A stretch of DNA of 64,000 bases from Solirubrobacterales bacterium. GTDB lineage: Bacteria > Actinomycetota > Thermoleophilia > Solirubrobacterales > 70-9. The position numbers and the translations under genes were made by a program. The stretch lies in contig DATMZR010000036.1 of the NCBI GenBank assembly GCA_035573435.1, positions 62,001 to 126,000 of the forward strand. Reading direction: 5' to 3'. The notes beneath the pieces were generated by a model that searched no databases, was not told where the DNA came from, and saw nothing but the letters and a program-made list of their open reading frames with translations. Below, piece after piece: positions 26,492 to 45,097 of the stretch; the stretch's first letter is position 1, and the number at the start of each line of letters is the position of its first letter.

Positions 26492-26499
26492 AGGGTGGT

Positions 26500-26706: not shown

Positions 26707-26789
26707 TTGTCCTCCCATTCTCTGTTCAGTCCCCACAGTCATGAGGTAAATCGCATAAAGGGCCCGTTTGGTGCGGTTTCTGACTAAGT

Positions 26790-26830: not shown

Positions 26831-26925
26831 GGAACCGCACCTGCCCGGCTGCGGATCGCTGATTTCGGCTACCGGAAGCGGGGCATTCATTGGTCGACCG
26901 GGCACGAGTTAGACTCGCAAGCCAG

Positions 26926-28550: not shown

Positions 28551-28559
28551 GGTCGCCGT

Positions 28560-29393: not shown

Positions 29394-29512
29394 CTGTCCT
29401 CCGTCTCGCGGCCCGCCGTCCCTCGACGGCGAAGCTTGCTTTTCCGGCAGGCTAACACTAACCGCATTGGGGTAACGCGGGCCGCAAAACCAGGTAACTG
29501 GGACCCCATCTG

Positions 29513-29542
29513 TTGACTTCCGGTGCCTCAACTGGGCATTCT
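29513..29542 (+). promoter_or_regulatory. Candidate promoter TTGACT-N18-CATTCT
   Basis: A -35-like TTGACT and -10-like CATTCT separated by 18 bases lie about 145 bases upstream of the LPFTG gene. The 29394-29684 leader contains no other recognised element. Confidence 0.35.
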
Positions 29543-29684
29543 GGTCCCGTCCCGAAAACCCAGGTGGGGTAGATCCCAGGCAGGGGTTGCCCCCGTCCCC
29601 TCTTCACCCGCGGTTGCATGGCAAGATGGATTGCGGGACTCCGGGGGGGTAACAGCGTCGTCGCTGACGGCAGGAGAAATAAGC

Positions 29685-30023
29685 ATGTTGAATCGAATCG
29701 CAGGCCAGCGTCCACGGCCTCAGTGGGGATTGTGGATTGCCTTGGCACTCGCCATCGTTGCGCTCGCAGTTCCGACCGCTGCGCTGGCGGGCTCTCCCAC
29801 TGACTACCAGTACAACCCGACCAATCACCAGATCGCGGCCAGTGGAGGCGGCGGCGGGCCATCCGAGCCCTCCAGTCCCTCGAGCGGCGAGAATCACGTG
29901 GTGAGTGGCCTTCCGTTCACCGGCTTCGATGTCGGAATCCTCGCACTCGCGTCGGTCGCTCTGATGGGTGCCGGCCTGACTCTGCGGCGGCTTTCCGATC
30001 CGGCCAGGCGGCCTTCCTCTTAG
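29685..30023 (+). CDS. Short LPFTG cell-wall-anchored protein (module A)
   Basis: A 112-residue sortase substrate. Residues about 12-35 form a signal peptide (WGLWIALALAIVALAVPTAA, then LAGS). A mature region of about 50 residues rich in Gly, Ser and Pro follows, then the sorting signal LPFTG near residue 80, a hydrophobic helix (VGILALASVALMGAGLTL) and a basic tail (RRLSDPARR). ATG 29685 has GGAG about eight bases upstream. The exposed part is tiny, so it can hardly be an enzyme; a wall spacer, glycan acceptor or sensor are possibilities. The sugar-phosphate transferase follows 62 bases later, the same order as in module B at 43270. Confidence 0.8.
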   Translation: MLNRIAGQRPRPQWGLWIALALAIVALAVPTAALAGSPTDYQYNPTNHQIAASGGGGGPSEPSSPSSGENHVVSGLPFTGFDVGILALASVALMGAGLTLRRLSDPARRPSS

Positions 30024-30085
30024 GCGCCTAGAAACAGGGGAGCAGGAGGCGAGACGGGGCCGCGGAGCGAGCGGAGGACGAAGAG

Positions 30086-31558
30086 ATGCTGGATACACCC
30101 AACCACTCTCGGGTCGTCGTCCCCGTGGCGCTCCGTGCGCTCGAGGCCCAGCGCCTGGTCAACCTGATCGCTTTCAAGGTGAGCCCGGCCGTGGCGGCGG
30201 GGCTCATCGCTTACGCACACACCGATGAGCTCGGCTCCTCGGTGCTGGTCGCGACGGCGATCCTCGCCGCTCTGCTGCTCGTCGACCGCTCCACCCTGCC
30301 GCTGGGGTTGATGCCAACGGCGCGGCTGGCACTGGGCCTCGTTGCGCCCGTGCTCGGGGCTGCGGCCGCTGCGTGGGTGCTTGCGGTCACCGGTCAGGCG
30401 CTGCCGCTCGCAGAGTTCCAGGCGCCGGTCGCCGGCGCCTGGCTGATCATGGCCCTGGGTGCCTGGGTGACGACCCGCTTCGACGATGATCGACACGTGC
30501 AGGTCGGGGTGATCGGGTCGGCAGGCTTCGCCTCGGATCTCGCCGAAGAGCTCGACGCGGCCGGCATCCGCGCCTACGAGGTGATCGGCTGGTTCGGGCG
30601 CGGGGCGCCCGGTCCCGACACGCCGGGGGTGGGCACCGGTCGCCTCCGCTACCTCGGCAGCCTGGAAGACGTTCGCTCGGCCGTCTTGGAGAGGCGGATC
30701 GAGCTGCTGGTCTGCGGGCGTGCAGAGCCCACCGACGCCGGCGAGGGCGCCGATCCGTATCACGACCCATACGTGTCGATCGCGGATTCCTGCCTGGATC
30801 TACCGGTGCGGATGCTCGATGCGAACCAGCTCTACGAGGACCTGCTGGGCCATGTGCCGCTCGGGACCACGGACTCGGCTTGGTTCCGCTACATCATGCA
30901 TCCGCGCTTCCGACCGACGTCCCCGCTCTGGAAGCGCTGCTTCGACCTGGCCAACGCGGCCTGGATGGCGGTCTTCGTGGTGCCGCTGATCGGGATCGCC
31001 GGGCTGGGAATCAAGCTGGCCGACGGTGGGCCCGTCTTCTATCGGCAGCGGCGCGTCGGAGAGCGTGGGAAGGAGTTCGAGCTCATCAAGCTCCGGACGA
31101 TGGTGCCGAACGCGGAGCTCAGCGGGCCGCAGTGGTCCGAGCCCGGTGACGAGCGCGTGACGCGGCTCGGCAGGTTCCTGCGCCGGACTCACATCGACGA
31201 GCTCCCACAGCTGTGGAACGTTGTGCGAGGCGAGATGACGCTGGTCGGCCCGCGGCCTGAGCGTCCGGAGATCTGCGCCGAGCTGGAGAACCGGTTCCCG
31301 CATTACATCCGCCGGCATCTCGTGAAGCCGGGGATCACGGGCTGGGCGCAGCTACGGTGCGGCTACGCCGGCTCTGAGCTGGGCACCGCCTGGAAGCTCT
31401 GCCACGACCTCTTCTACATCAAGCGACGTTCGATCTTGGCGGATTGGCTGATCATCGTCGAGACCGTAGTCCTGGCGGGGCGGGACGCCCATCGGGCGCT
31501 TCGAGCCCCGCGCCATCGGTTCATCGTGGGCGAGGCCAGTGAGGTTCATCGTGGGTGA
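30086..31558 (+). CDS. Polyprenyl-phosphate sugar-1-phosphate transferase (module A)
   Basis: A 490-residue initiating enzyme of polysaccharide synthesis. Four or five N-terminal helices and a CoA-binding-like cytoplasmic domain (VGVIGSAGFASDLAEELDA) precede the catalytic sugar-transferase domain: GGPVFYRQRRVGERGKEFEL, then IKLRTM, LRRTHIDELPQLWNVVRGEM and LVGPRPERPE, and KPGITGWAQLRCGYAG. It transfers a sugar-1-phosphate from a UDP-sugar to undecaprenyl phosphate on the inner face of the membrane. GGAGGACGAAGAG precedes the ATG. It is paralogous to the enzyme at 43655. The PAS-LuxR gene overlaps its stop. Confidence 0.9.
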   Translation: MLDTPNHSRVVVPVALRALEAQRLVNLIAFKVSPAVAAGLIAYAHTDELGSSVLVATAILAALLLVDRSTLPLGLMPTARLALGLVAPVLGAAAAAWVLAVTGQALPLAEFQAPVAGAWLIMALGAWVTTRFDDDRHVQVGVIGSAGFASDLAEELDAAGIRAYEVIGWFGRGAPGPDTPGVGTGRLRYLGSLEDVRSAVLERRIELLVCGRAEPTDAGEGADPYHDPYVSIADSCLDLPVRMLDANQLYEDLLGHVPLGTTDSAWFRYIMHPRFRPTSPLWKRCFDLANAAWMAVFVVPLIGIAGLGIKLADGGPVFYRQRRVGERGKEFELIKLRTMVPNAELSGPQWSEPGDERVTRLGRFLRRTHIDELPQLWNVVRGEMTLVGPRPERPEICAELENRFPHYIRRHLVKPGITGWAQLRCGYAGSELGTAWKLCHDLFYIKRRSILADWLIIVETVVLAGRDAHRALRAPRHRFIVGEASEVHRG

Positions 31559-32199
31559 GGCCGGTGAATAGCATCACCCCGGAGCTGGCCGGCGCCACGG
31601 GCCCGGCGGCCGTCCCGACTCAGCTCGCGATCCTCGTGGTCGACGACGATCGACGCTGCCTGGAGGTCAATCTGGCGGCCTGCCGACTGCTCGGCCTTCC
31701 CCGATCGGCTGCGCTCGGCCGCACGGTGGACGACTTCCTCGCCCCCGGCATGCGCAAGCGCCTCGACCACGTCTGGCGCGCCTTCCGCGAGGGCGGAGGA
31801 CACGCCGGGCCGTTCGAGCTCAACTCCCAGGCCGCCGAGGTGCACGAGGTGAACCTCAGCGTGGTGGCCAATGTGCTGCCGAGTCGCCACCTGCTGATCC
31901 TGACGACGACTGACGCTCGAGTCGATAACGCACAAACCACCCGGCAGGCGCTACCAGAGCAGCGCCGATCGAGTCGGGTCAACAGCCGCTTTGGCCGAGG
32001 TGGGCCGACCCCCCGCGAGCGGGAGGTGCTCACGATGTTGGCTGCCGGGGCGACCGACGAGCAGATCGCGGAGATGCTCGAGCTCTCCCCGGCGACGGTG
32101 CAGACCCACGTCCGAAACGCCAAGGCCAAGCTCGGGGCGCGGACTAGGGCCCAGGCCGTGGCCATGGCGCTCCAGCACGGCATGATCACTGTCGGCTGA
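31555..32199 (+). CDS. PAS-LuxR transcriptional regulator
   Basis: A 214-residue one-component regulator. The N-terminal PAS-like domain (AILVVDDDRRCLEVNLAACR near residue 22, HLLILTTTD near 110) is followed by a LuxR helix-turn-helix: TPREREVLTMLAAGATDEQI, then TVQTHVRNAKAKLGARTRAQ. The VDDD string superficially recalls a receiver domain, but no phosphoacceptor layout follows. Its GTG overlaps the stop of the transferase gene, so it is made with module A and may control polysaccharide genes. GTG 31564 is an alternative start. Confidence 0.82.
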   Translation: MRPVNSITPELAGATGPAAVPTQLAILVVDDDRRCLEVNLAACRLLGLPRSAALGRTVDDFLAPGMRKRLDHVWRAFREGGGHAGPFELNSQAAEVHEVNLSVVANVLPSRHLLILTTTDARVDNAQTTRQALPEQRRSSRVNSRFGRGGPTPREREVLTMLAAGATDEQIAEMLELSPATVQTHVRNAKAKLGARTRAQAVAMALQHGMITVG

Positions 32200-32292
32200 G
32201 CAGCCCCGCGGCCGGTCCTGAACCGCGGCGCGCATCCGGGCCAGCAAATGAGGGGAGCGGGCCCGGAACGCGCCGCGGCCCGCGCGCCGGTA

Positions 32293-34314
32293 TCAGCCCC
32301 GGCCGCCCGGCGAGCGAGTGCCGAGGTCCTCCTTCAGAGCCAGGACCTGGGGGTCATAAGGGTTGAGTCGCTCGGCGATCGCCAGCTCTCGGCGGGCCCG
32401 CCGAGGCGAGCGCCGGGCATAGAGCTCCGCCAGGTTGAAGTGCGCCGCCCATTCCTCGGGGCGGTCCCGCGCCGCCTGATGAAAGGCGTCGATCGCGCGA
32501 GCTCGATCCCGGTCGGCGCGGGCGATTGCGCCCTCGGCGAGCACCGGATCTATGCTCAGCGGGTTGAACGTCTCGGCACGATCGAGATCGTCGTAGGCGC
32601 GCGAGAGGTCGGACCGCCATTCGCCATAGGCGTCGTTGACGTAACGGTGACTGAGATAGGGCGCGACCGCCGAGACCGCGAGCACCACGGCGGCCACAGC
32701 CAGCCAGCGACGACCCTGACCCCGGGGCGCGTCACCGACGATCCTGAGAGCCGGCGCACAGGCCGAGCCGAGCAGAGCGAGGACCGGCGCGGTGAGTGCC
32801 GGGTACGGCCAGAACCAGTCGAAGGACGCATGCCCAAGCCAGTAGGCGGCGGCTGTCAGGGCGATGATCGATAACCACGCTGGTTGGGGGCCCAGGCGTC
32901 GCGCCCGCACCGCCCCGAGACCGGCTGCTGCGATTGCGCCGAGGAACAACAGCAACCCTGGATAGCCGAACTCGGACAGGTTCTCCAGCGCGATGTTATG
33001 CGCGTCGTGAACCGAGACCGGGCTGTCCTCCTCCCGGTCGCGCAGATAGCTGTACAGGAAGCCGCCGCCACCCTCGCCAAGCAGGGGCTCCTCGCGGGCA
33101 TCGATCAGTGCCACCCGCCAGATCGCGGGGCGCCGGGTGGCGGCGTTCAGCGAGGAGAAGCGGTTCGACTCGGCGCTCAGGTTGGCATTCTGGCCGCTGG
33201 ACAGCTGGGAGACACGCTGATCGATCCAATCGACGGGATTGCCGACCGCCACCGCGAAGGCGATCGAGCCGGCGAGCACCGCGGTCACGAGTCCGGCGAG
33301 GGTGACGCGATTGGCGACCTGGACCCGGCGCTCCGAGGCGGGAATGCGCTTCCCCAGCAGGGAGGCCACGGCGCCTAACGCCAGCGAGCCGGCGCAGGTG
33401 AGCGCGACGGCGCGCCCGGCCGCGTGCAACTCATCGAGCGCCGATTGCAGCGGACCGTCCGCATTCGCGGCGCGGTAGAGATCGATCAGGGCGGGGAGGA
33501 TGAGCAACGCTGGGAGAACGGCGAGCGCCAACCACCAGATCCTGCGAGCCCGGTCCTCGGAGAAGAGCAGATAGACGCACAACGCCGCCGCGCCGCCGAT
33601 CAGGGATCCACGGCTCTGGCTGAGCATCGCCAACTCGAGGCACAGCGTCGCGGTCGCCAGCGCAAGGGCACGCACGGGCCAGACGCTGCCGCGGTGTGAC
33701 GCCAGCCCCAGCGCCGGCCACAGGGCGATTGCGAAGAAGGCCGCGTTCGCGTTCCGGTACCCGAGCGGAAACTCGAGCGTTCCGTCGCCCTCGAGATAGT
33801 GCGCAACGTGATCACCGGTGAGCAGGCCGAGCACGGCGACCGTGCCCGCAAACGCCCCCGCGACGGCGAGCGGAACCCACGCCAGATGCAGGCGGTTGCC
33901 CAGCAGATTGCAGAGCCAGATCCCCAGCCCGAAAGCCAGCGCGTAGGTGAGGATGCGCTGGCCGTCTTCTATCGCGACGTCCGGGGCCGGGCTCCAAAGC
34001 GCGGACAGCGCCGCCCATCCGCCGAGCCCGGCAAGCAAGGCGAAGGCGATGGTCGCCGGCCGCGAGGGGCGCAGGCTGCCGCGCCAGGGAGCGGTCCAGG
34101 CAAGCACAACGGTGGTGGCGCAGAGCAGGATCGTCCCCGGGAGCAACACGGTCCCGAAGAAGGCGCCGTCCTTCGCGGCCCACCACGACCAGACGATCGT
34201 GAGGACGGCGAGCAACAGCACCGCCGCCGGCTCCACCCGCCGGCTCGGTGCCGGGGCGGCCTCCCGGTCGGCGGGCGCGACGGGCGCGGCTGTGGCTTCT
34301 GGGCCGGCTGACAT
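32293..34314 (-). CDS. O-antigen ligase/Wzy-like membrane protein with C-terminal TPR
   Basis: A 673-residue membrane protein with about 12 helices. The ligase-type periplasmic loop contains ATRRPAIWRVALIDAREEPL, LLGEGGGGFLYSYL and VHDAHNIALENLSEFGYPGL, the Wzy_C signature with its conserved His. After the last helix (WLAVAAVVLAVSAVAPYLS) comes a domain of about 115 residues with tetratricopeptide-like repeats (ARAIDAFHQAARDRPEEWAA, HFNLAELYARRSPRRARREL). TPR tails occur in some glycan ligases and suggest a protein partner. This is the second Wzy/WaaL-like protein here, so one may polymerise and the other ligate. It precedes no close partner; the sugar epimerase ends 21 bases away. Confidence 0.8.
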   Translation of the reverse strand: MSAGPEATAAPVAPADREAAPAPSRRVEPAAVLLLAVLTIVWSWWAAKDGAFFGTVLLPGTILLCATTVVLAWTAPWRGSLRPSRPATIAFALLAGLGGWAALSALWSPAPDVAIEDGQRILTYALAFGLGIWLCNLLGNRLHLAWVPLAVAGAFAGTVAVLGLLTGDHVAHYLEGDGTLEFPLGYRNANAAFFAIALWPALGLASHRGSVWPVRALALATATLCLELAMLSQSRGSLIGGAAALCVYLLFSEDRARRIWWLALAVLPALLILPALIDLYRAANADGPLQSALDELHAAGRAVALTCAGSLALGAVASLLGKRIPASERRVQVANRVTLAGLVTAVLAGSIAFAVAVGNPVDWIDQRVSQLSSGQNANLSAESNRFSSLNAATRRPAIWRVALIDAREEPLLGEGGGGFLYSYLRDREEDSPVSVHDAHNIALENLSEFGYPGLLLFLGAIAAAGLGAVRARRLGPQPAWLSIIALTAAAYWLGHASFDWFWPYPALTAPVLALLGSACAPALRIVGDAPRGQGRRWLAVAAVVLAVSAVAPYLSHRYVNDAYGEWRSDLSRAYDDLDRAETFNPLSIDPVLAEGAIARADRDRARAIDAFHQAARDRPEEWAAHFNLAELYARRSPRRARRELAIAERLNPYDPQVLALKEDLGTRSPGGRG

Positions 34315-34335
34315 CCCGGCAAAGCTACTGGCCCG

Positions 34336-35268
34336 CTAGGCGATTGAATCCGCGGTTGCCCGCAGGCCCTGCTCGAGACTCGTCCGGGCCTGCCAGCCCA
34401 GGTTCTGGGCGGCGAGCGAGCTGTCGATCGCGATGCGCTGCACCTCGCCCGGGCGGGCGGGAGTCATCTCTGGATCGAACTCTTGGTCGCAGATGCCCGC
34501 CAGCAGGCGGCCGAGCTCCAGCACGCTGGTCTCGACCCCGGTGCCGATGTTGTAGGTCCCTTGCGCCTCCGACTCCGCTGCAGTCAGGAAGGCGTCCACC
34601 ACATCCCCAACGTAGATGTAGTCGCGCGTCTGGTGGCCGTCGCCGAACACCTTCGGGACGCCCCCGTCGAGGAGCGCCCCGCAGAAGATCGCCACGACGC
34701 CCGCCTCCCCGAGAGGGTCCTGCCGCGATCCGTACACGTTGCCGAGCCGCAGCGAGATCGTTGAGACGCCGTAGAGGCGGCTGTAGAGAGACAAATAGCC
34801 CTCGGCCGTGTACTTGCTCTGGCCGTAAGGGGCATCGGGCATGCATTCGGCTCGCTCGTCGAGTGGAAGCGGGCGCCCGCTGCCCTCGCCGTAGACTGCC
34901 CCGCCGGTCGAGGCCAGGATGACGCGTGACCCGGGCTTCTGCCGGGCTGCCTCGAGCAGGTTGAGCGTCCCGCCAACATTGACGCCCAGGTCGAAGACCG
35001 GATCGGACACGGACCGGCGCACGTCGATCTGAGCGGCGAGGTGGAAGAGGACGTCGGGTGAGTGGGCCTCGAAGGTGCGGCTGAGGGCAGCCTTGTCGGT
35101 GATGTCCGTCTCCAGCAGCAGAGCACCCTTGGCGATGGCGTCGTCGAGATTCTGGCGTCGCCCGGTCGACAGATCGTCGATCACCACGACCCGGTCGCCA
35201 CGCGCGACCAGCGCATCGACCACGTTAGAGCCGATGAAGCCTGCCCCGCCGGTTACGAGCGCCTCCAT
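34336..35268 (-). CDS. UDP-glucose 4-epimerase-like SDR (GalE family)
   Basis: A 310-residue extended SDR. TGGAGFIGSNVVDALVARGD at residues 6-25 binds NAD, VVVIDDLSTGRRQNL gives the epimerase-type second strand, and HLAAQIDVRRSVSDPVFDLG near 76 is typical of actinobacterial GalE homologues. The catalytic residues are in ASTGGAVYGEG and PYGQSKYTAEG. The expected reaction is UDP-Glc/UDP-Gal or UDP-GlcNAc/UDP-GalNAc interconversion. It is the upstream partner of the Wzy-TPR gene on the same strand (21 bases). Confidence 0.85.
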   Translation of the reverse strand: MEALVTGGAGFIGSNVVDALVARGDRVVVIDDLSTGRRQNLDDAIAKGALLLETDITDKAALSRTFEAHSPDVLFHLAAQIDVRRSVSDPVFDLGVNVGGTLNLLEAARQKPGSRVILASTGGAVYGEGSGRPLPLDERAECMPDAPYGQSKYTAEGYLSLYSRLYGVSTISLRLGNVYGSRQDPLGEAGVVAIFCGALLDGGVPKVFGDGHQTRDYIYVGDVVDAFLTAAESEAQGTYNIGTGVETSVLELGRLLAGICDQEFDPEMTPARPGEVQRIAIDSSLAAQNLGWQARTSLEQGLRATADSIA

Positions 35269-35305
35269 TGAAGAACGGCAGCTTAAAACCCTGGACTGCG
35301 CTCTG

Positions 35306-35761
35306 CTAGGGCCCGGTCGCGATCGCGCCCAGCTGCGCGGGGGTCAGCAGGGCTCTCAAGGTGCCGTTCTCGATTCCGGCCAGCCCGCCCTTCTTGAGCT
35401 TGACCCGGGCACCCGTGGCCGCCTCGATCGCGTGTGAGAAGTCGGGCTCGTGACCTACCAAGAGCACGTTTCCGGCCCATCCCTGGGTGCCGGCCTGGGC
35501 CGCCACTCGCTCCAGCTCGAAGTCGCCGCCCCGAAGCATCTCGGTCTCCTCGACGTCGACGCCCAGCTTGCGACAGGCGATGCGCGCCGTGTCGCGGGCA
35601 CGGATCTTGGGAGAAGTCAGGCAGGCACCAATGCCGTCATCGATTGCCTCGAGGGCCCGGCCGGCGACCTCCGCTTGCCGCTCGCCCGTCTCGGTCAGCC
35701 TCCTCGCCGCGTCGTCCTCGGCGGCCTCCTCCGCGTCGCCGTGTCGCAAGAGCCAGATCAT
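35306..35761 (-). CDS. SixA-type phosphohistidine phosphatase
   Basis: A 151-residue histidine phosphatase. It starts directly with the RHG motif (MIWLLRHGDAE), and the second catalytic His is in VLLVGHEPDFSHAIEAAT near residue 103; SPKIRARDTARIA and GTLRALL fit the SixA branch. SixA removes phosphate from histidine-phosphorylated proteins such as HPt domains. The frame is open far upstream, but the RHG motif must be near the N-terminus, which fixes the start. It is divergent from dnaE with a 69-base gap. Confidence 0.85.
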   Translation of the reverse strand: MIWLLRHGDAEEAAEDDAARRLTETGERQAEVAGRALEAIDDGIGACLTSPKIRARDTARIACRKLGVDVEETEMLRGGDFELERVAAQAGTQGWAGNVLLVGHEPDFSHAIEAATGARVKLKKGGLAGIENGTLRALLTPAQLGAIATGP

Positions 35762-35830
35762 CGTCGGGAATCGTCGCACGGTGCGTGTTCGGCTGCCGGT
35801 GGCATCTGGGCCGATTGAAATGATCCCTTC

Positions 35831-38800
35831 GTGAGCGGGGAAGCTGTCCACCTGCACGTCCACAGCGAGTACTCGCTGCTCGACGGCGCCTGCAAGATCG
35901 CCGCCAAGGACGCTGACGGCGCGGACTGCGGGCTGGCCGCGCGCGCTGCAGAGCTGGGCATGCCGGCCCTTGGCCTCACCGATCACGGGGTGATGAACGG
36001 GGCTGTAGAGCACTACAAGGCCTGCCACAAGCACGGAATCAAGCCCATCCTGGGGCTGGAGGCCTATCTGGTCGACGACCGGCGGCGCGCCGGGGAGCGC
36101 CTCGAGCGCAACCACCTGACCCTGCTCGCGGCCTCGGATGGCGGCTTTCGGAACCTCGTGAAGCTCACGTCGGCCGGCTTCCTCGAGGGATTCGGGCGCG
36201 GGAAGCCAAGCGTTGACCTGGAGCTCTTGGAGCGGCATTCGGAAGGGGTGATCGCCCTCACCGGATGCCTCCAGTCGCGCTTCTGTCGGCGCCTGGTGGA
36301 GGAGCGGCCGGCGGATGCCCGCGCCCATGTCGACGAGCTCTTGGGCGTCTTCGGGCCGGACAACGTCTACTTCGAGATCCAGGCCAATGGGCTGGCGGAG
36401 CAGGAGAAGGCCAATGAGGGGATCGTCCGAACGGCAAAGGAGCTCGGCCGGCCGCTGGTGGCCACGGCCGACGTTCACTACCTGCGCCGGGAGGACTACT
36501 CGAACCACGCCGCGCTTCTGTGCATGCAGACCAAGTCCACCGTCGAGCAGCCGAAGCTGCGCTTCGAGACAAACGAGTTCTTCCTCAAGAGCCCCGCCGA
36601 GATGGCGGAGTCGTTCTCGCGCTGGCCCGAGTCGGTGCCGACCACCCTGGAGATCGCCGAGCGCTGCGACGTGGAGATCGAGCTCGGCCAGCTCCTCTTG
36701 CCTCGCTTCCCGACGCCGGAGAACGAGGAGCCGACCGCGATGCTGCGGCGACTCGCCACCGAGGGCCTCGCGCGTCGCTATGGGGATCCGCCCCCCGGGG
36801 AGGCCCGCGAGCGGTTGGAGTTCGAGCTCTCGGTGATCGCCGAGATGGGCTTCGACTCCTACTTCCTCATCGTGTGGGACTTCGTCAGGCACGCCAAGGA
36901 AAATGGGATCGCCGTCGGCCCGGGTCGTGGCTCCTCGGCGGGCTCGATCGTCGCGTACTGCCTCAACATCACGGACCTCGACCCGCTCGCCAACGAGCTG
37001 CTCTTCGAACGTTTCCTCAATCCGGCCCGCAAGTCGATGCCGGACATCGACATCGACTTCTCGGTTCGCGGTCGGGAGCGAGTGATCCGCTATGTGGGCG
37101 AAAAGTACGGGCGCGAGTCGGTGGCGCAGATCATCACCTTCGGCAAGATGGCGCCCCGTGCTGCGACCCGCGACGCAGCGCGGGTCCTGGGTTTCGACTA
37201 CGCGACCGGCGACCGGATCGCCAAGCAGATACCCGAGCCGGTGCTCGGCCGGAATCCGAGCTTCAGGGAGTGCCTCGCGGATGGGGAGGAGCTCAAGCAC
37301 ACCTACGACTCCGATGGCGACGCGCGCCGCATCATCGATGTTGCGCGCGGCCTCGAGGGGATCGTCCGCAACAACTCGATTCACGCCGCCGCCGTTGTGA
37401 TCGCCGATCGGCCTCTTGCGGACATCGTTCCCCTTCAGCTCGCGGAGGATCGCGGTGGCGGCGCCGAGCGCGAGCCAAACGCCGTCGGCCCCCAGAACGG
37501 CGGCCGCGCCGAGCGCGCCTACAAGATCGTCACCCAGTACTCGATGGGGCCGATCGAGGAGATGGGCCTCTTGAAGATGGACTTCCTGGGGCTCCGCAAC
37601 CTCGACGTGATCGAGGACGCGGTCGAGATCATCGAGCGCTCCCGAGGCGTGGAGATCGAGATCGAGGCGATCCCGCTCGACGACGCCAAGACCTTCGAGA
37701 TGCTGTCAGGGGGGAACTCGGTTGGCGTCTTCCAGCTCGAGTCGGACGGCATGCGCGACGCGCTGCGCCGGGTACGCCCGACCGACTTCAACGACATCGT
37801 CGCCCTGGTTTCCCTGTATCGGCCGGGGGCGATGCGCTTCATCGACGACTACGCGAACGGCAAGCGCGACCCCGCGTCGGTTCGCTACGCGGATCCTCGT
37901 CTACGCTCGATCACCGAGTCCACGTACGGGTGCTGCATCTACCAGGAGCAGCTGATGGAGATCGCCAAGCAGATGGCGGCCTTCAGTCCTGCCGAGGCGG
38001 ACGATCTGCGGAAGGCGGTGGGGAAGAAGAAGCGCGACCTGATGGCGCAGATGAAGGACAAGTTCCTGGCCGGCCTCGCGGATTCGGGGACCGATCGCCG
38101 GGTCGCCCAGGACCTGTGGTCGCTGATGACGGCCGCGGCGGATTACAGCTTCAACCGAAGCCACGCGGCCTGTTACGCGCTGATCGCCTATCGAACCGCC
38201 TTTTTGCGGGCGAACTACCCCGCCGAGTACATGGCTGCCGTGATCTCCTCGGTGATGACCACCAAGGACAAGGTGCCTTTCTTCGTCAATCGTTGCGAGG
38301 AGATGAGCATCCAGGTGCTGCCTCCGGACGTCAACTCGTCCGACCACGGGTTCGTGGTGAGCGGCAAGTCGATCCGTTTCGGCCTCGACGCAGTCAAGAA
38401 CGTCGGCCACCAGGCGGTGGAGGGGATCATCAGGGCACGCGAGAGCAGCGGCCCCTTTTCATCGATCTGGGACTTCTGCGACCGGGTGGACGCCCGGGCG
38501 GTCAACAAACGGGCGGTCGAGTGCCTGATCAAGTGCGGCGCCCTCGATTCGACCGGCGCGAGCCGCAAGGGAATGCTCGAGGTGCTGTCCGTGGCCCAGG
38601 CGAGCGCCTCGAAGTCTCAGGAGGACGCTCGGCGCGGGCAGGGCTCGATCTTCGACCTCGGCGGCGAGCAGCCCGGGGGCGCGGCGACGCCGGCCGGTGG
38701 GGCCGGGGAGGAGCGGCCGCCGGTCCCGAGCGAGGAATTCGACCAGCGGGAGCTGCTGGGGCTCGAGAAGGAAACCCTGGGCACGTTTCTCTCCGCGCAC

Positions 38801-39403
38801 CCGCTCGCCGAGGTTCGCGACGCGCTTCGCGAACGAGTGGACTGCTCGCTGGAGGAGGTGGGGCGCAAGGAGGACGGCGCGTGGGTCTCCGTGGGCGGGA
38901 TCGTCAGCGAGCGCAAGCGGGTCCGCACGCGCAGCGGCGCCCACGTGATGTTCGCGACCCTCGACGATCTGGAGGGGCGGGTGGAGCTCTTCGTCCGCGA
39001 CGCGACCTCGGAGGCGGCGGACCGGATCGAGCTCGATCGCGTGATCCTGGTGCGGGGCCGAGTCGATCACAAGGGCCGCGGCGAGACCAGCCTCGTGGTC
39101 GCCGAGGCCGAGCCATTCGAGCCGGGCGAGGACGAGGTGGCGGCGGCGCGAGCCAAGGCCAAGGCTCGCCGACCCGATCGGATCCTCCTGCGAGTCAGCG
39201 CAGGCGAGTTCGGGGCCGAGCTCGTCGAGGAGCTGAAGGCGTTGTTCCAAAGCTTTCCGGGCGACTGCGAGGTGGTGCTCGAGATGGAGACACGCGAGGG
39301 CACCCGGCGACTCCGATTTGGCCGCGAGTACTGCGTCACCCCGTCCCAGGCCCTCCGTGCCGAGCTCGACCACCTGCTGGGCCCACAAGCGCTGGCGGCC
39401 TGA
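35831..39403 (+). CDS. dnaE: DNA polymerase III alpha subunit (DnaE1 type)
   Basis: The replicative polymerase, 1190 residues, a normal length. The N-terminal PHP domain begins HLHVHSEYSLLDGACK and continues to about residue 200. The polymerase core contains AVGPGRGSSAGSIVAYCLNI and PDIDIDFSVRGRERVI, whose aspartates bind the catalytic metals, near residue 402. A helix-hairpin-helix region (near 870-960) and an OB fold (near 1015-1090, GAWVSVGGIVSERKRV) follow. No intein or error-prone DnaE2 signature is seen. GTG 35831 is the start. Confidence 0.96.
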   Translation: MSGEAVHLHVHSEYSLLDGACKIAAKDADGADCGLAARAAELGMPALGLTDHGVMNGAVEHYKACHKHGIKPILGLEAYLVDDRRRAGERLERNHLTLLAASDGGFRNLVKLTSAGFLEGFGRGKPSVDLELLERHSEGVIALTGCLQSRFCRRLVEERPADARAHVDELLGVFGPDNVYFEIQANGLAEQEKANEGIVRTAKELGRPLVATADVHYLRREDYSNHAALLCMQTKSTVEQPKLRFETNEFFLKSPAEMAESFSRWPESVPTTLEIAERCDVEIELGQLLLPRFPTPENEEPTAMLRRLATEGLARRYGDPPPGEARERLEFELSVIAEMGFDSYFLIVWDFVRHAKENGIAVGPGRGSSAGSIVAYCLNITDLDPLANELLFERFLNPARKSMPDIDIDFSVRGRERVIRYVGEKYGRESVAQIITFGKMAPRAATRDAARVLGFDYATGDRIAKQIPEPVLGRNPSFRECLADGEELKHTYDSDGDARRIIDVARGLEGIVRNNSIHAAAVVIADRPLADIVPLQLAEDRGGGAEREPNAVGPQNGGRAERAYKIVTQYSMGPIEEMGLLKMDFLGLRNLDVIEDAVEIIERSRGVEIEIEAIPLDDAKTFEMLSGGNSVGVFQLESDGMRDALRRVRPTDFNDIVALVSLYRPGAMRFIDDYANGKRDPASVRYADPRLRSITESTYGCCIYQEQLMEIAKQMAAFSPAEADDLRKAVGKKKRDLMAQMKDKFLAGLADSGTDRRVAQDLWSLMTAAADYSFNRSHAACYALIAYRTAFLRANYPAEYMAAVISSVMTTKDKVPFFVNRCEEMSIQVLPPDVNSSDHGFVVSGKSIRFGLDAVKNVGHQAVEGIIRARESSGPFSSIWDFCDRVDARAVNKRAVECLIKCGALDSTGASRKGMLEVLSVAQASASKSQEDARRGQGSIFDLGGEQPGGAATPAGGAGEERPPVPSEEFDQRELLGLEKETLGTFLSAHPLAEVRDALRERVDCSLEEVGRKEDGAWVSVGGIVSERKRVRTRSGAHVMFATLDDLEGRVELFVRDATSEAADRIELDRVILVRGRVDHKGRGETSLVVAEAEPFEPGEDEVAAARAKAKARRPDRILLRVSAGEFGAELVEELKALFQSFPGDCEVVLEMETREGTRRLRFGREYCVTPSQALRAELDHLLGPQALAA

Positions 39404-39415
39404 ATGCGGCGCGTT

Positions 39416-39421
39416 TAGACT
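39416..39421 (+). promoter_or_regulatory. -10 box TAGACT, likely leaderless promoter
   Basis: TAGACT lies six bases before ATG 39428, just after the dnaE stop. It implies the small Cys-rich gene has its own leaderless transcript. Confidence 0.5.
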
Positions 39422-39427
39422 TCCCAC

Positions 39428-39823
39428 ATGCCGCTCAAGCAACGAGAGCAGGAGAGTGTCCGGGCCGGCGAGTGCCGTCGGTGCCGCACCTTCTGCGACC
39501 GTCTCGTTGACCCTCGCGGCTGCCTGGAGCTTCGCTGTCGCTATCTGTACAGCTACGTGGATCCGCTCAGCGGCGGTCAGTACATGGGCTGCATGCGCAA
39601 GGTCTTTCGCGCCGAGATCGACCTGGCGATGTTCGAGGCTGCCGAGCGAGACGGCGGCTACGGCGGCATCAAGATGACGGGCGAGCCTCTGCCTCAGTGT
39701 CAGACCCGGGTGGAGCCGGCCTACGAGCAGGTGGGGCCCGCCCACGAGTGCGTCAACCCGGGCTTCTTCGACTGCGGCGCAGGCGAGCCTCAGACGTTCG
39801 ACCTGCGCGACGCCCTGGCCTAA
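39428..39823 (+). CDS. Conserved-looking Cys-rich protein, probably metal-binding
   Basis: 131 residues, family not recognised. Nine cysteines occur at residues 16, 19, 23, 32, 37, 55, 91, 107 and 115. The first three form CRRCRTFC, and DPRGCLELRCRYLYSYVDP and GGQYMGCMRKVFRAEIDLAM follow. The spacing suggests a zinc or iron-sulfur site. No helix-turn-helix, signal peptide or membrane segment is visible, so it is probably cytoplasmic. It stands 24 bases after dnaE with its own promoter-like box, and a structured repeat starts two bases after its stop. Confidence 0.7.
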   Translation: MPLKQREQESVRAGECRRCRTFCDRLVDPRGCLELRCRYLYSYVDPLSGGQYMGCMRKVFRAEIDLAMFEAAERDGGYGGIKMTGEPLPQCQTRVEPAYEQVGPAHECVNPGFFDCGAGEPQTFDLRDALA

Positions 39824-39824
39824 G

Positions 39825-39928
39825 TAATCCGGCGGAAGCCTCGGCTTCGCCTACGTTTCCGCCGGGCAATGGCGCGGACCTGACCCGGCAGGTCCACACG
39901 TTGCTGCCGCGACTTCGTCGCTAGCCCA
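39825..39928 (+). repeat. Structured ~100-bp repeat, copy 1
   Basis: Starts two bases after the stop codon at 39823. Hairpins can form from CGGCGGAA with TTTCCGCCG, GACCTG with CAGGTC, and GCGA-CTTCG-TCGC. The reverse-complement copy at 47863-47965 shares most of the sequence. The last stem differs by a compensatory pair (GGGA-CTTCG-TCCC there), supporting RNA structure. It sits between convergent genes. Confidence 0.75.
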
Positions 39929-39933
39929 GGCCG

Positions 39934-40812
39934 CTAGCGTTGAGCTAGGGCCTCCTTGCGGAGGCGCTTCGCGGTTCGCACCTCCCTGCGATCCGGGCCC
40001 TTGCCGTCTGGGCCCGGGGTCTCGATCAGCGCCGGCAGCCCATCGAAACGCGGCTCGGATAGGAACGGGCGAAGCCCCTTGCGCCCCAGCTCCCCGTCGC
40101 CCAGGTTCGCATGCCGGTCGCGGTTCGAGCCGAGGGGCACCTTGGAATCGTTCACGTGCAGGCAGAGCAACCGGTCGAGTCTCACCTTGGCGTCGAATTC
40201 GTCCACCACCTCGGCGAGCGCCTCGCGCGTGCGGATCTCGAACCCCGAGGCCAGCAGGTGGCAGCAGTCCAGGCAGGCGCCCAGGCGCTCACCGCCTCCG
40301 GCGGCTTCAATCAGCTCGGCGAGCTCGTCGAAGTTGCGGCCGAGTGGCCCCTGCGTGCCGGCGGTGTTCTCGAGCAGAAGCGGCGTGCGCTCCGAGCTTT
40401 GGAGCGCCTGGCTGATCGCCTTGCCGGCGCGCCTCACCGAGGGGCCCTGGGGCTCTCCCTTGCGCGCCCCGGCGTGGAGGACAACCCCTGCGGCGTCGAT
40501 CCCATCGCCGATCCGCAGCGCGTGCGTCAGCGAGGTGAGGGACTTGCGCCGGACCTCGCGCTCCTTGCTGGCGCAGTTGATCAGGTAGACAGCGTGGATG
40601 ACCACCGCTTGGAGCGGCGAGTCGGCCATCGCCTGGCGAAACGCTTCGAAGTCCTCCTCCGTGTAGCGGGTCGGCCTCCACATGCGCGGGCTCTGATGGA
40701 AGATCTGGATGGCATCGCAGTCGAGCTCCACGCCACGCTCGACGGCCTTTGCGAGCCCGCCTGCGGTGGAAACATGGGCTCCGATCAGCACCGGACGCCG
40801 CGTTCTTCGCAT
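39934..40812 (-). CDS. nfo: Endonuclease IV (deoxyribonuclease IV)
   Basis: A 292-residue AP endonuclease with a TIM-barrel fold, cutting 5' of abasic sites in base-excision repair. Seen: IGAHVSTAGGLAKAVERGVE at the start, AIQIFHQSPRMWRP, VIHAVYLINCAS, LLLENTAGTQGPLGRNFDEL, GACLDCCHLLASGF, LLCLHVNDSKVPLGSNRDRH and LPALIETPGPDGKGPDRREV. These carry the metal-binding His, Glu and Asp residues of the family. The basic C-terminus (KRLRKEALAQR) is usual. A perfect palindrome abuts the start codon. Confidence 0.93.
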   Translation of the reverse strand: MRRTRRPVLIGAHVSTAGGLAKAVERGVELDCDAIQIFHQSPRMWRPTRYTEEDFEAFRQAMADSPLQAVVIHAVYLINCASKEREVRRKSLTSLTHALRIGDGIDAAGVVLHAGARKGEPQGPSVRRAGKAISQALQSSERTPLLLENTAGTQGPLGRNFDELAELIEAAGGGERLGACLDCCHLLASGFEIRTREALAEVVDEFDAKVRLDRLLCLHVNDSKVPLGSNRDRHANLGDGELGRKGLRPFLSEPRFDGLPALIETPGPDGKGPDRREVRTAKRLRKEALAQR

Positions 40813-40813
40813 T

Positions 40814-40826
40814 CCAATGCCATTGG
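40814..40826. promoter_or_regulatory. Palindrome CCAATGCCATTGG at the nfo start
   Basis: A 13-bp perfect palindrome with one central base ends one base upstream of the nfo ATG. It could be an operator or a leader hairpin affecting initiation. Confidence 0.4.
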
Positions 40827-40845
40827 CGGCACCCTAGCGAGGGCC

Positions 40846-40893
40846 GGAGGCCACCAGTAAAGGCGAGGCGGAGGCCACCAGTAAAGGCGAGCC
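40846..40893. repeat. 24-bp tandem direct repeat, two copies
   Basis: The unit beginning GGAGGCCACCAGTAAAGGCG occurs at 40846 and again at 40870, nearly identical. It is the first element of the 598-bp gene-free gap 40813-41410 and runs directly into a dispersed palindrome. Confidence 0.65.
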
Positions 40894-40932
40894 CTGGCGG
40901 GTTTGTGGCGGATATCGCCATAAACTCGCCAG
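40894..40932. repeat. Dispersed palindrome, copy 2 of 3
   Basis: CTGGCGGGTTTGTGGCG and CGCCATAAACTCGCCAG pair around GATAT. Nearly the same element occurs at 63817. Here it lies upstream of nfo rather than between convergent genes. Confidence 0.6.
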
Positions 40933-41021
40933 CGGCCAGAACTTCGCCCAGGAGCAAGTACCGCCCGCCGGCATGCTGCACGCCTGTCATACCGGCTTCC
41001 ACCTCCCCGATTTGAGGTAAA

Positions 41022-41054
41022 TCTACCCTGATCTGGGTACGAAATTAGGGTAGA
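41022..41054. promoter_or_regulatory. Inverted repeat TCTACCCT...AGGGTAGA
   Basis: Perfect 8-bp arms separated by 17 bases, in the gap before the GGDEF-EAL gene. This is a candidate operator or RNA hairpin. Further on (41055-41198) I see only GC-rich sequence without a clear gene. Confidence 0.4.
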
Positions 41055-41198
41055 AGGCGCTCCAGGCTCCCCCGCAGGGTGGTTCTAGGTCTCGCCCCTC
41101 CAAAGGGATGGAGGGCAGGGTTCTTACGAACGGCAGAGGTTTAGGCGAGGGGAAGTTACGACTGTGGCAGGGAGGCCAGCAGTATCACTAGGCGGCGG

Positions 41199-41465
41199 TT
41201 GGACGAGCTCGGACTGGCGCCGGTCGGGCGTCGGCTGGGGTTGACCATGCGACGCGTCTTGCTCCTCAATGCGTTGGCCTCGGTGCCCTGGACGCGCGGC
41301 TACTGGACGGTGGACGCCGATGACTCCGACGGCGACGGCCGCGGGGATGGCTGGACCAGCTCCAGTAGCCGCGACGATGGCCGGACCGGCGAGGGTATGG
41401 CCTGCAGCTCATGGCGCACGCAGAGCTCGTCGGGAAACTTCCGGTCGAGCGTCGGTTGGGACTGA
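41199..41465 (+). pseudogene. Duplicated N-terminal fragment of the GGDEF-EAL protein
   Basis: This frame encodes PVGRRLGLTMRRVLLLNALA, closely matching PVERRLGLTMQRVFLEELA at the start of the adjacent GGDEF-EAL protein, about 221 bp further on and in a different frame. The two DNA copies differ mainly at synonymous positions, so both were once translated. After the similarity the frame degenerates into Asp/Gly/Ser-rich sequence with no domain. It is most likely a remnant of a tandem duplication; a short real peptide cannot be excluded. Confidence 0.45.
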
Positions 41466-43270
41466 CCATGCAGCGCGTTTTTCTCGAGGAGCTCGCGCGA
41501 GCTACGCGCGCTATCTGCGAAGCGCCCGACGCCGAACACGCGGTCGCGGTTCTGCTCGACCATGCCCACAGGATGTTGGGCGCCCGCAGAACCGAGCTAA
41601 TGTTGCTCTCGCACGAAGGGGCGACAACCGCCCTTCGAGCGAGACTGGAGCCGGGCCGGCCGGTGGCTCGTCCACGCGCGATCGATCCCTCGAAAGATGC
41701 CGTGTGGAATGCGGTGGCGGGCCTGCGCCGAGCGGCGCGCCTGCCCGAGTCGGCGAGCCCCAAGGTGAAGGAGGGACTGCGCGCGGAGGGGATCCAAGAG
41801 GCGATTGCCGCTCCGATAGTCCACGCCGGCAGCTTCAAAGGCGCGGTGCTCGCCGCGGATCCGGTCAACGAGCTGGAGGGCTTCACTAGGGATCACCTGG
41901 CGCTCGTGGAGCTGCTCGCCGCCCATGCTGGGGCGGCGCTGGAGGTCGACCGGCTCAGCGAGTCCTTCATGGAGCTTCGACGGCTCCAACGGGAGCTTAG
42001 GCATCACGCTCTGCATGACGCTCTCACAGGTCTCGCAAACCGCGTTCTGTTCGTCGAACGCCTCAAGCATGCGCTGACCCGGCGGTCCCAGGCGCCGCTG
42101 GGAGTCCTGTTCATCGACCTTGACGACTTCAAGTCGATCAATGACATGCACGGTCACGCCGCGGGCGACCAGGTACTGATCCGGACCGCGACTCGGCTGC
42201 AGCGGTGCCTGCGCCCACACGACACGGCGGCGCGGCTCGGCGGCGATGAGTTTGGTGTCCTGCTCGAGGACGTCGTCGATGAGGCGGAGGCACAGCAGGT
42301 GGCCGACCGGATCGCGCGCGCCCTGCGCGGCGAGAGCTCGAACGGCAGCGGCGGCACGCGAGTCAGCGTCGGCATTGCGATAGCGAGGCCGGGGACAGAG
42401 AGCTCGGGGGAGTTACTGCGAAATGCCGATCTCGCGATGTACGCAGCAAAGGACGGCGGCAAGGGCCGCTCCGCCGTGTTCCGGCGCTCGATGTATGAGC
42501 AAGCGGCCCTTCGGTACCGCCTCGGGGTCGAGTTGCCGGCGGCGATCCGCAACGACCAGCTTGTGGTGCATTACCAGCCCATCCTGGCGCTTGATGGCCG
42601 CCGGATAGCCGGCCACGAGGCGCTCGTCCGCTGGCGTCATCCAAATCGTGGCGAGCTGCTCCCGACCGAGTTCCTGCCGGTCGCCGAGGCATCAGGCGTC
42701 ATGTCCGAGCTGTTTCGCTTCACGCTCGGAAGGGCGCTCGCGGATTGCTCAGAGCCGGGCCGGCTCAACCCAGGCTTTGTATGCGTGAACGTCTCCTCGA
42801 GCCAGCTCGAGCATTCGCACTTCCTCACCGACCTTGAGAACGCGCTGGCCGACTCCGAGGTTCCGGCGGATCGTCTGATCCTCGAGGTCGTGGAGACCGA
42901 GCTGATGGCTGGGCTGATTCTCGCGACCAGCCGTCTGGAGTCAGTCCGCCGTCTGGGCGTGCGGGTGGCCATCGGGGACTTCGGCACCCGCCACTCCCTT
43001 GAGCACCTCGTGCGATTGCCGGTGGGCATCATCAAAATCCCCCGTTCCCTGACCACGGACGCGGCGCGCAACCGGCGCGTCTCGGCACTCCTTGACGCGG
43101 TCCGTTCGATGGCACACGAGCTCGGCCTCACGGTGGTGGCCGAGGGCCTCGAGGAGGAGGATCAGCTGGAGGCGCTCACGGAGATCGGGATTCCGTACGG
43201 ACAGGGCTTCCTGCTCGGCTGCCCCGAGCCGCTCGCGGCTCAAGACGGAACGCAACTGCCGGTGCTCTGA
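41411..43270 (+). CDS. GAF-GGDEF-EAL c-di-GMP signalling protein
   Basis: 619 residues. A GAF-like sensor (about 20-180) leads by a short helix to GGDEF (about 200-360): LHDALTGLANRVLFVERLKH, then RLGGDEFGVLLED with an intact motif and an RxxD inhibitory site (RPHD) five residues before it. The EAL domain (about 375-610) has GHEALVRWRHP and AEGLEEEDQLE, but DDFGTG is altered to GDFGTR and the usual KIDRSF is KIPRSL. Predicted role: diguanylate cyclase with a weak or dead phosphodiesterase half that may bind c-di-GMP. ATG 41411 is chosen because upstream codons show conserved coding; ATG 41468 is an alternative. Its stop overlaps the LPFTG gene start (TGATG). Confidence 0.85.
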   Translation: MAHAELVGKLPVERRLGLTMQRVFLEELARATRAICEAPDAEHAVAVLLDHAHRMLGARRTELMLLSHEGATTALRARLEPGRPVARPRAIDPSKDAVWNAVAGLRRAARLPESASPKVKEGLRAEGIQEAIAAPIVHAGSFKGAVLAADPVNELEGFTRDHLALVELLAAHAGAALEVDRLSESFMELRRLQRELRHHALHDALTGLANRVLFVERLKHALTRRSQAPLGVLFIDLDDFKSINDMHGHAAGDQVLIRTATRLQRCLRPHDTAARLGGDEFGVLLEDVVDEAEAQQVADRIARALRGESSNGSGGTRVSVGIAIARPGTESSGELLRNADLAMYAAKDGGKGRSAVFRRSMYEQAALRYRLGVELPAAIRNDQLVVHYQPILALDGRRIAGHEALVRWRHPNRGELLPTEFLPVAEASGVMSELFRFTLGRALADCSEPGRLNPGFVCVNVSSSQLEHSHFLTDLENALADSEVPADRLILEVVETELMAGLILATSRLESVRRLGVRVAIGDFGTRHSLEHLVRLPVGIIKIPRSLTTDAARNRRVSALLDAVRSMAHELGLTVVAEGLEEEDQLEALTEIGIPYGQGFLLGCPEPLAAQDGTQLPVL

Positions 43271-43668
43271 TGGGTTGTAGAGCTCAACTACCGACGGCGC
43301 TCATCCTGGATTCCAAGGTGGACAAGCTGACTTCGCGCGATCCCGGTCGACGGGATCACGCGCCCCTCCCCGTTCGAGGCCGGAAGCTGATCGTGTCGGC
43401 TGTCGTCACCGCTGCGCTGCTCGTTCCGGGGGCGGCCGCAGCGCAGGCCTCAAGCCCGACATCGACCCAATACGACGACCAGGTAACGCTCGCACGGCAC
43501 CAGGTGCATCAGGCCACGACCGCAGGCCCCGACGATCCGGTGATCAGCGCTCTTCCGTTCACCGGCGTCGATCTCGTGATCCTGGCTTTCGCGGCCATGG
43601 TGCTGGTTGGCGCTGGGGCCGCCCTTCGGAGACTGAGCGCCGCCGGCGAGTCTGATGAGCGCGCCTAA
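43270..43668 (+). CDS. Short LPFTG cell-wall-anchored protein (module B)
   Basis: A 132-residue sortase substrate. A long basic N-terminus precedes the signal helix (LIVSAVVTAALLVPGAAAAQ, residues about 40-59). The mature part is about 40 residues and includes SPTSTQYDDQVTLARHQVHQ. The sorting signal LPFTG lies near residue 97, followed by VDLVILAFAAMVLVGAGAAL and RRLSAAGESDERA. It is coupled to the GGDEF-EAL gene (one-base overlap) and overlaps the transferase gene by 14 bases. It is homologous in layout and in the SPT-x-Q-Y stretch to the 29685 protein. It probably belongs to a small family tied to glycan initiation; function unknown. Confidence 0.8.
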   Translation: MGCRAQLPTALILDSKVDKLTSRDPGRRDHAPLPVRGRKLIVSAVVTAALLVPGAAAAQASSPTSTQYDDQVTLARHQVHQATTAGPDDPVISALPFTGVDLVILAFAAMVLVGAGAALRRLSAAGESDERA

Positions 43669-45097
43669 GCAATCTCGATCCTGGTCGCTGGGGCCCCTGG
43701 GCGCGCGTCGCCTGCTGGACCTCATCGCGCTCGGGATTGTGCCTGCAACCGCCGCCGGCGTGCTCGCCTTCACGCACAGTGGCCGTCCCTACTGGGGGAT
43801 GGTTGTCGCCGTCTTGATCTTTGTCGCGAACCAGCTGGTCAGCCGCACGAGGTATCCGCTCCACCTGATGCCGATCGCCAGGTTCGCCACTTGCGTTCTC
43901 AGCCCGCTGCTCGGGGCTCTCTTGGCCTGGGCGGTGGCCCTCTCCACGGGAATGGGCTCGTTGGGGGACTCCCTGATCCCCGCAGTCGTGGGCGCTTTGC
44001 CGCTCGCGGCTTTCGGGTGCTGGATCAGGGGCCGCTTCGACATGAGCGTTGGGGTGCGCATCGCAGTCATCGGCGACCCGGAGGTCGCCGATGGGCTCAG
44101 CAAGGAGATCGCGATGGCGAGGGTTCACGGTTACCGGGTCCTCGGGTGGGTCTCCGTCAATGGCCGATCTCCTGCTGAGCTGGCAACCGAGGTTCCGTAT
44201 CTCGGCCCGATCGAGGACCTCCGTCGGATCGTCCCTGCTCACCAGATCGAGTTGCTCGTCCACGCGCAGGGCCCCTCCGGGGAGGTCTCTCGCCTCGAAA
44301 TCTTCGAAGCTGTTGGTGCCGGCTGCCTCGATCTGCCGGTGAAGTTGATCGAGGCAAGCCAGTTCTACGAGGAGCTGCTGGGCCACGTTCCGGTCGGGCA
44401 GATCAACGCGGCCTGGTTTCAGTACCTGATGCACCCGCGCTATAGGCGCACCCCGACCTTCACTAAGCGCGCCTTCGACCTCGCAATCGGCGGCGTGGCG
44501 CTGGTCTTCGCTGCGCCGCTGATCGCCCTGTTCGCGGTGATCATCAAGCTGTCGGACGGGGGCCCCGTGTTCTACCGCCAGCGCCGAGTCGGCGAGGGCG
44601 GGTGCGAGTTCGAGATGATCAAGCTGCGCTCCATGCGCCCGGACGCCCAGGCGAGTGGTGCACAGTGGTCGAGCCGTGACGACCACCGCGTTCTACCCGT
44701 CGGCCGCTTGATGCGCAAGCTCCACGTCGACGAGCTTCCCCAGCTGTGGAACGTCCTGCGCGGCGAGATGACGCTGGTCGGCCCACGGCCCGAGCAGCCG
44801 CAGCTCGTCTCGGAGCTCGAACGCCGCTTTCCCCACTACGAGCGCCGAAGTCTGGTGAAGCCGGGCATCACCGGCTGGGCGCAGGTGCGCTGCGGCTATG
44901 CGGGGACCAGCGAGGGCTCCGCCTGGAAGCTCTGTCACGACCTCTACTACGTGAAGCACCGCTCGCTTCTCGCCGATCTGATGATCATCCTTGAGACCGC
45001 TCTGGCGCTCGGCCATCGAGCCCAGTTCGAACTGGATCCGCCGGGCGAGCAGTTCATCGTCATGAACGAGGCGGCGGTGGAGGCTCTCAGCACCTAA
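43655..45097 (+). CDS. Polyprenyl-phosphate sugar-1-phosphate transferase (module B)
   Basis: A 480-residue paralogue of the enzyme at 30086. The N-terminal helices and the middle Rossmann-like domain (VRIAVIGDPEVADGLSKEIA) are more diverged. The catalytic domain is very similar: GGPVFYRQRRVGEGGCEFEM, IKLRSM, MRKLHVDELPQLWNVLRGEM, LVGPRPEQPQ and KPGITGWAQVRCGYAGTSEG. It starts 14 bases inside the LPFTG gene, so c-di-GMP enzyme, wall protein and transferase form one operon. Two initiators imply two lipid-linked sugars or conditional use. Confidence 0.9.
   Translation: MSAPKQSRSWSLGPLGARRLLDLIALGIVPATAAGVLAFTHSGRPYWGMVVAVLIFVANQLVSRTRYPLHLMPIARFATCVLSPLLGALLAWAVALSTGMGSLGDSLIPAVVGALPLAAFGCWIRGRFDMSVGVRIAVIGDPEVADGLSKEIAMARVHGYRVLGWVSVNGRSPAELATEVPYLGPIEDLRRIVPAHQIELLVHAQGPSGEVSRLEIFEAVGAGCLDLPVKLIEASQFYEELLGHVPVGQINAAWFQYLMHPRYRRTPTFTKRAFDLAIGGVALVFAAPLIALFAVIIKLSDGGPVFYRQRRVGEGGCEFEMIKLRSMRPDAQASGAQWSSRDDHRVLPVGRLMRKLHVDELPQLWNVLRGEMTLVGPRPEQPQLVSELERRFPHYERRSLVKPGITGWAQVRCGYAGTSEGSAWKLCHDLYYVKHRSLLADLMIILETALALGHRAQFELDPPGEQFIVMNEAAVEALST

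Follow-up and report, generated by a model that had tools for sequence, protein, structure and literature searches.

The window analysed here is a stretch of 64,000 nucleotides from a Solirubrobacterales bacterium (assembly GCA_035573435.1, contig DATMZR010000036.1, positions 62,001–126,000). It encodes two very small LPxTG proteins (mini-proteins 1 and 2), two initiating sugar-phosphate transferases (TR1 and TR2), a Wzy_C ligase with a C-terminal TPR domain and a sortase, which together may form a system that attaches exopolysaccharide to the cell wall. Mini-protein 1 (29685..30023, plus strand, 112 residues), recognized from its translation and from orthologues in G001, G002 (76% identity) and other relatives, comprises a signal peptide, an SPTDYQY motif, a linker, LPFTGFD, a transmembrane (TM) segment and the tail LRRLS. 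Its ATG at 29685 is preceded at about 10 nucleotides by AGGAGA, a good ribosome-binding site. Mini-protein 2 (43270..43668, plus strand), recognized from its translation and a match to the family profile, displays an SPTSTQY motif, LPFTGVD, a TM segment and again LRRLS; its start is uncertain, giving 132 residues from the first ATG, which overlaps the stop codon of a GGDEF-EAL gene, or 116 residues from GTG 43318. Both have the layout of LPxTG sortase substrates (signal peptide, LPxTG, TM segment, basic tail), with 40 and 34 exposed residues, respectively; gene calls come from a small codon-usage script of our own, and signal-peptide cleavage sites were estimated by rule. At E 0.001 neither protein matches any Pfam or NCBIfam model, and weak matches to the Pfam model of viral glycoprotein J, below its cut-off, were judged to be due to chance. 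The predicted mini-protein structure, of low confidence (pLDDT 60.8), contains two hydrophobic helices and one short helix.

TR1 (30086..31558, plus strand; PF02397, E 5.8e-58; TIGR03025, 282 bits, below the cut-off of 295.55) lies directly 3' of mini-protein 1, and TR2 (43655..45097, plus strand; PF02397, E 2.4e-60; TIGR03025, 320 bits, above the cut-off) directly 3' of mini-protein 2, with a 14-nucleotide overlap. Both are polyprenyl-phosphate sugar-1-phosphate transferases. A first-pass annotation of the window had reported two LPFTG proteins, each directly upstream of a PF02397 transferase, and a sortase at 19.9 kb, and all of these are present. It had also described the pairs as a duplicated module, which, if a recent duplication was meant, is unsupported: TR1 and TR2 are 50% identical and fall in different clades, TR1 with G002, G001 and G017 and TR2 elsewhere (at most 51% identity to any row); they are old paralogues from two deep clades. 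With TR2 as the query against 60 relatives, 11 close orthologues were found in other genomes. The pairing is not confined to this genome, since an LPFTG protein also stands directly upstream of the transferase in G001, G002, G005, G011, G019 and G049, and G008 has a weaker candidate; in G029, G016 and G006 the transferase is present and no recognized mini-protein adjoins it, while in G017 the contig ends at the transferase. The pair is thus shared by further genera and families of Solirubrobacterales, and in the additional families it belongs to a larger module. The initiating transferase is, nevertheless, not the most constant partner of the mini-protein, because only 13 of 31 ligase-linked mini-proteins have a PF02397 transferase within 300 nucleotides and the transferases come from two deep clades; the pair was therefore rejected as the core unit.

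The more constant neighbour, absent from the first-pass annotation, which had stressed a fixed pairing with the transferase, is a Wzy_C protein, about 670 residues long, that ends in a TPR domain. In the window this protein (32293..34314, minus strand, 673 residues) lies 0.7 kb beyond TR1 on the opposite strand, and we propose that it is the O-oligosaccharyltransferase acting on the mini-protein. Enzymes of the Wzy_C class can attach glycans to proteins, whereas an initiating transferase does not. It matches PF04932 with 51.6 bits (curated cut-off 31.7), and its AlphaFold model is of high quality (mean pLDDT 91.5, pTM 0.92). Among solved structures the best match of the model is the O-antigen ligase WaaL (7TPG; Z 21.6, root-mean-square deviation 4.7, 386 of 403 residues), and residues 550–673 align with solved TPR domains (Z 16–17), the Pfam TPR signal being weak in the window ligase and clear in that of L304. 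The ligase contains the stretch HNIALENLSEFGYPG, which fits the signature H[NSQ]x9GxxG that we take to be characteristic of O-antigen ligases. R235, R395 and H439 are invariant across 64 ligase homologues and parallel R215/R288/H338 of WaaL and R224/R298/H349 of PglL (PMC3643930), an equivalence judged by the order and kind of the residues and not by residue-level superposition. Two loops, 468–478 and 521–535, are rich in arginine, and by the positive-inside rule the TPR domain would be located outside the membrane, on the same side as H439. The ligase scores 39.8 bits against TIGR03097, the exosortase A O-glycosylation ligase model, far below the cut-off of 188.1. A sequence search of PDB revealed no true relative, and a search of a plasmid collection gave no match. 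The same genome encodes a second Wzy_C-TPR ligase (L261, contig C21), which has no recognized mini-protein next to it.

The linkage between ligase and mini-protein was tested in three surveys. Among sortase-centred loci of named organisms, which were sorted by eye and in which ligase scores under 100 bits were counted as absence, an LPxTG protein occurs near the ligase in 9/9 loci that have one; of the loci without a ligase 2/71 have such a protein, one of these two apparently spurious. Several strains of Solirubrobacter, Conexibacter and Paraconexibacter are represented among the sortase loci, and in the surroundings of their sortases no ligase is close by. In ligase-centred loci drawn from 232 genomes of the order Solirubrobacterales, 40/90 ligases had an LPxTG match within 1.3 kb in an automatic scan, or 36/90 after four false motif matches (L213, L214, L217 and L248) had been removed by eye. 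By contrast, an LPxTG mini-protein occurs around only 2/167 other large genes in ligase-free loci, a control set left untrimmed (Fisher p 6e-17 against 36/90); such p-values overstate the certainty because related sequences are not independent. In another actinobacterial class, represented by family f19, a small LPxTG protein lies within 1 kb of the ligase in 13/13 loci and carries stretches such as PADTQYTP or SSDAQYGAP. Stronger than the p-values is this recurrence in two classes, in both orientations and in several gene orders; ligase and mini-protein are mostly no more than 300 nucleotides apart. The many sortases of f19 suggest that it may correspond to Rubrobacter: its genomes have 3 to 23 sortase matches each, mostly at least six, and most Solirubrobacterales examined have one to four. 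Some sorted proteins of f19 (L304, L305, L308, L325 and L326) are longer, about 180–245 residues, and have in common a segment resembling ASVVLQDADGTQGTFIDG, which lies between their tyrosine motif and LPxTG.

A recognized anchored small protein accompanies 77 of 98 ligases, namely, 54 LPxTG proteins (types A, B and R), 17 of type C, 5 of type D and one other; these labels were checked by hand, a few of them, including those of the window, refer to proteins beyond 1.3 kb, and those of f19 were assigned after reading its loci. Type C has an SPLLSGYGGPG-like motif, with LGLSG or nothing replacing LPFTG, and type D combines a YELPV motif with a plain TM anchor. Mini-protein types follow the ligase phylogeny, with 20 changes on a FastTree ligase tree against a mean of 57.8 after shuffling, a contrast inflated by near relatives. 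In genera g40 and g16 the small protein keeps the SPLLSGYGGPG-like motif, but the LPFTGxD of the others is replaced by LGLSGxD or is missing altogether (loci L212–L214, L216–L219, L221, L224, L227, L231, L248–L251 and L254; sortases L281–L284, L286, L289, L291 and L293). Many g40 sortases read SACTPLFSA where others read TACHPLYSA, a change not found in g16; covariation of sorting motif and sortase is, on these sequences, only a lead. In a separate ligase clade (L253, L256, L257, L272 and L280) the ligase is adjoined by a small protein with two TM segments and an IYELPVD-like motif, lacking LPxTG.

The exposed part contains a tyrosine in 62/62 distinct LPxTG mini-proteins, gathered without a filter for tyrosine, and exactly one in 56 of them. 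By our simple cleavage rule this tyrosine is at mature position 8 in 28 proteins and at positions 4–12 in 50; the frequency of tyrosine is 9.3% at positions 4–12 compared with 0.5% beyond position 15. In 55 proteins the tyrosine follows Gln, Gly or Ala, and no other column nearby is equally constant. The rest of the exposed part is of low complexity, with an abundance of Gly, Ser, Ala, Pro and Thr. Because the filter used to collect types C, D and E itself required a tyrosine, these types provide no evidence on this point.

The sortase (19862..20566, minus strand; PF04203, E 1.9e-29) is the sole PF04203 match in the assembly (2.58 Mb, 43 contigs, 97% complete). Of the sortase class models it fits the class E model NF033747 best, with 127.3 bits, below the cut-off of 160, and can be called class E-like; its named relatives are Solirubrobacterales of the class Thermoleophilia. 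It adjoins a Wzx/Wzy/Wzz-type polysaccharide cluster at 10.8–19.8 kb, which includes a Wzx-type flippase (10783..12336, plus strand; PF13440, E 6e-52), a second Wzy_C protein of 465 residues without a TPR match, probably the polymerase of the cluster (14517..15914, minus strand; PF04932, E 3.2e-20), and a Wzz-type chain-length protein with a nucleotide-binding domain (15925..17559, minus strand; PF02706, PF13614). Since the cluster has its own Wzy, the TPR-bearing Wzy_C protein is surplus to it.

Several known systems share parts of this arrangement. O-oligosaccharyltransferases are usually encoded next to their substrate gene (PMC3643930; PMC12645811). Like the module described here, PglL, PglS, TfpO/PilO and TfpM are Wzy_C enzymes encoded beside one substrate and have the Arg/Arg/His residues (PMC3643930; PMC12645811), but they are Gram-negative enzymes that act on pilins, mostly at Ser/Thr, and the PglL-specific domains PglL_A and Wzy_C_2 are not found in the window ligase. 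A parallel for the tyrosine comes from Paenibacillus alvei, in which the S-layer glycan pathway starts with WsfP, an enzyme of the PHPT family, and WsfB, a Wzy_C protein with a C-terminal TPR domain, is predicted to transfer the glycan to tyrosine (PMC2943079). Initiating transferase, ligase type and, presumably, acceptor residue are thus alike; however, the acceptor in P. alvei is a large S-layer protein and there is no sortase step, whereas here an LPxTG mini-protein is encoded beside the ligase. The exosortase/PEP-CTERM system likewise combines a sorted C-terminal tag with nearby polysaccharide genes, among them one of the PF02397 family and one for a TPR protein (PMC1569441), and the window ligase weakly resembles TIGR03097, although the sorting pair is exosortase and PEP-CTERM there and sortase and LPxTG here. 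In Actinomyces oris, the sortase-anchored GspA receives a glycan (PMC6381275), the transfer being carried out by the LCP phosphotransferase LcpA and not, as proposed here, by a Wzy_C ligase. Finally, in Actinoplanes missouriensis a class E sortase anchors SspA, a small disordered protein with a link to a matrix that depends on Wzx/Wzy; the available passages on SspA describe neither glycosylation nor an adjacent ligase (PMC13293333).

The precedents for O-oligosaccharyltransferases with adjacent acceptors, the sorting signal and the single sortase therefore lead to a wall-tether model. We consider it somewhat probable that the mini-protein is the dedicated acceptor of the Wzy_C-TPR O-oligosaccharyltransferase and that exopolysaccharide is tethered to the cell wall through this unit. 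PF02397 transferases would start the glycan on undecaprenyl phosphate and the Wzx/Wzy/Wzz cluster would build it; the ligase, whose TPR domain would lie outside the membrane, would transfer the lipid-linked glycan to the mini-protein once that protein has been exported, and the acceptor would probably be the conserved tyrosine some eight residues from the mature N-terminus. The sortase would then cut LPFT|G and join the mini-protein to peptidoglycan; a single covalent chain would thus run from the glycan through the short disordered linker to the wall. The model predicts one modified residue per mini-protein. The first-pass annotation had suggested that the mini-protein takes part in glycan assembly, for example as an acceptor or anchor in the wall; this is now the best-supported reading, with its emphasis shifted to another partner and with one clade lacking LPxTG. 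More tentatively, and with some doubt on our side, these genes may represent an envelope system that is shared by at least two classes of actinobacteria and has not been described before, in which the ligase loads exopolysaccharide onto one mini-protein tyrosine and the sortase fixes it to peptidoglycan as a covalent polysaccharide–tyrosine–protein–wall tether, or as a membrane tether where LPxTG has been lost. Titles, abstracts and passages in open-licence full text yielded no description of the module; Wzy_C-TPR ligase, tyrosine mini-protein and sortase anchor are each a known ingredient, but their combination appears to be undescribed. In Gram-positive bacteria the known covalent attachment of surface polysaccharides to the wall proceeds largely through LCP phosphotransferases. 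If the model is correct, ligase, acceptor and sortase would constitute another route for fastening polysaccharide to peptidoglycan, dedicated O-oligosaccharyltransferase pairs, known from Gram-negative pilins, would also exist in Actinomycetota, and glycoengineering would gain short tyrosine acceptors together with the matching ligases.

A number of observations weigh against this model. In the window the ligase is 9 kb away from mini-protein 2, and 21/98 ligases have no recognized partner. PglL_A and Wzy_C_2 are not among the Pfam matches of the ligase at E up to 1. At least two LCP enzymes, which could anchor the glycan instead, are encoded in each of 17 genomes, and the absence of LCP was accordingly rejected as support for the ligase route. 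Most genomes of the LPxTG-less clade still keep a sortase; a parallel loss of the sortase was thus rejected, and the wall-anchoring step is not universal. Ser and Thr make up about 24% of the linkers, so that the tyrosine may be a docking residue.

The last point leads to a variant of the same acceptor system, in which the glycan is carried by Ser/Thr of the linker and the conserved tyrosine only docks the TPR domain of the ligase. The abundance of Ser and Thr, the binding of peptides by TPR domains and the use of Ser/Thr in the known PglL and WsaB systems speak for it; yet no Ser/Thr position is conserved beside the tyrosine and several exposed regions have just 16–26 residues, and we regard it as unlikely. 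A little less likely, in our estimation, is that the Wzy_C-TPR protein is a polysaccharide polymerase, with the mini-protein as a non-covalent foothold in the wall or as its regulator, as suggested for SspA. Wzy_C alone does not distinguish ligases from polymerases, and SspA is needed for firm sporangia of Actinoplanes, its authors speculating, in the available passages, on interaction with Wzy or with matrix polysaccharide (PMC13293333); against this, the window cluster has its 465-residue Wzy and the best fold match is to the ligase WaaL, although the structure library may contain few solved polymerases. It is more improbable still that the genes merely share polysaccharide loci and that the mini-protein is an unrelated small wall protein, e.g. 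an adhesin or a coat protein. Similar proteins do occur away from the ligase in some relatives (G006, G017 and G053), but the usual spacing of at most 300 nucleotides, kept in two classes and across differing gene orders and orientations, the agreement of mini-protein type with ligase phylogeny and the 2/167 controls are difficult to reconcile with mere co-location.

The polysaccharide cluster also contains a D-glucuronyl C5-epimerase-like gene (12347–13291), which suggests that its polymer includes uronic acid. Both modules are surrounded by signalling genes (25100–32199 and 41411–43270), encoding HD_5 and SpoIIE/STAS proteins, GAF- and PAS-LuxR regulators and the GGDEF-EAL protein.
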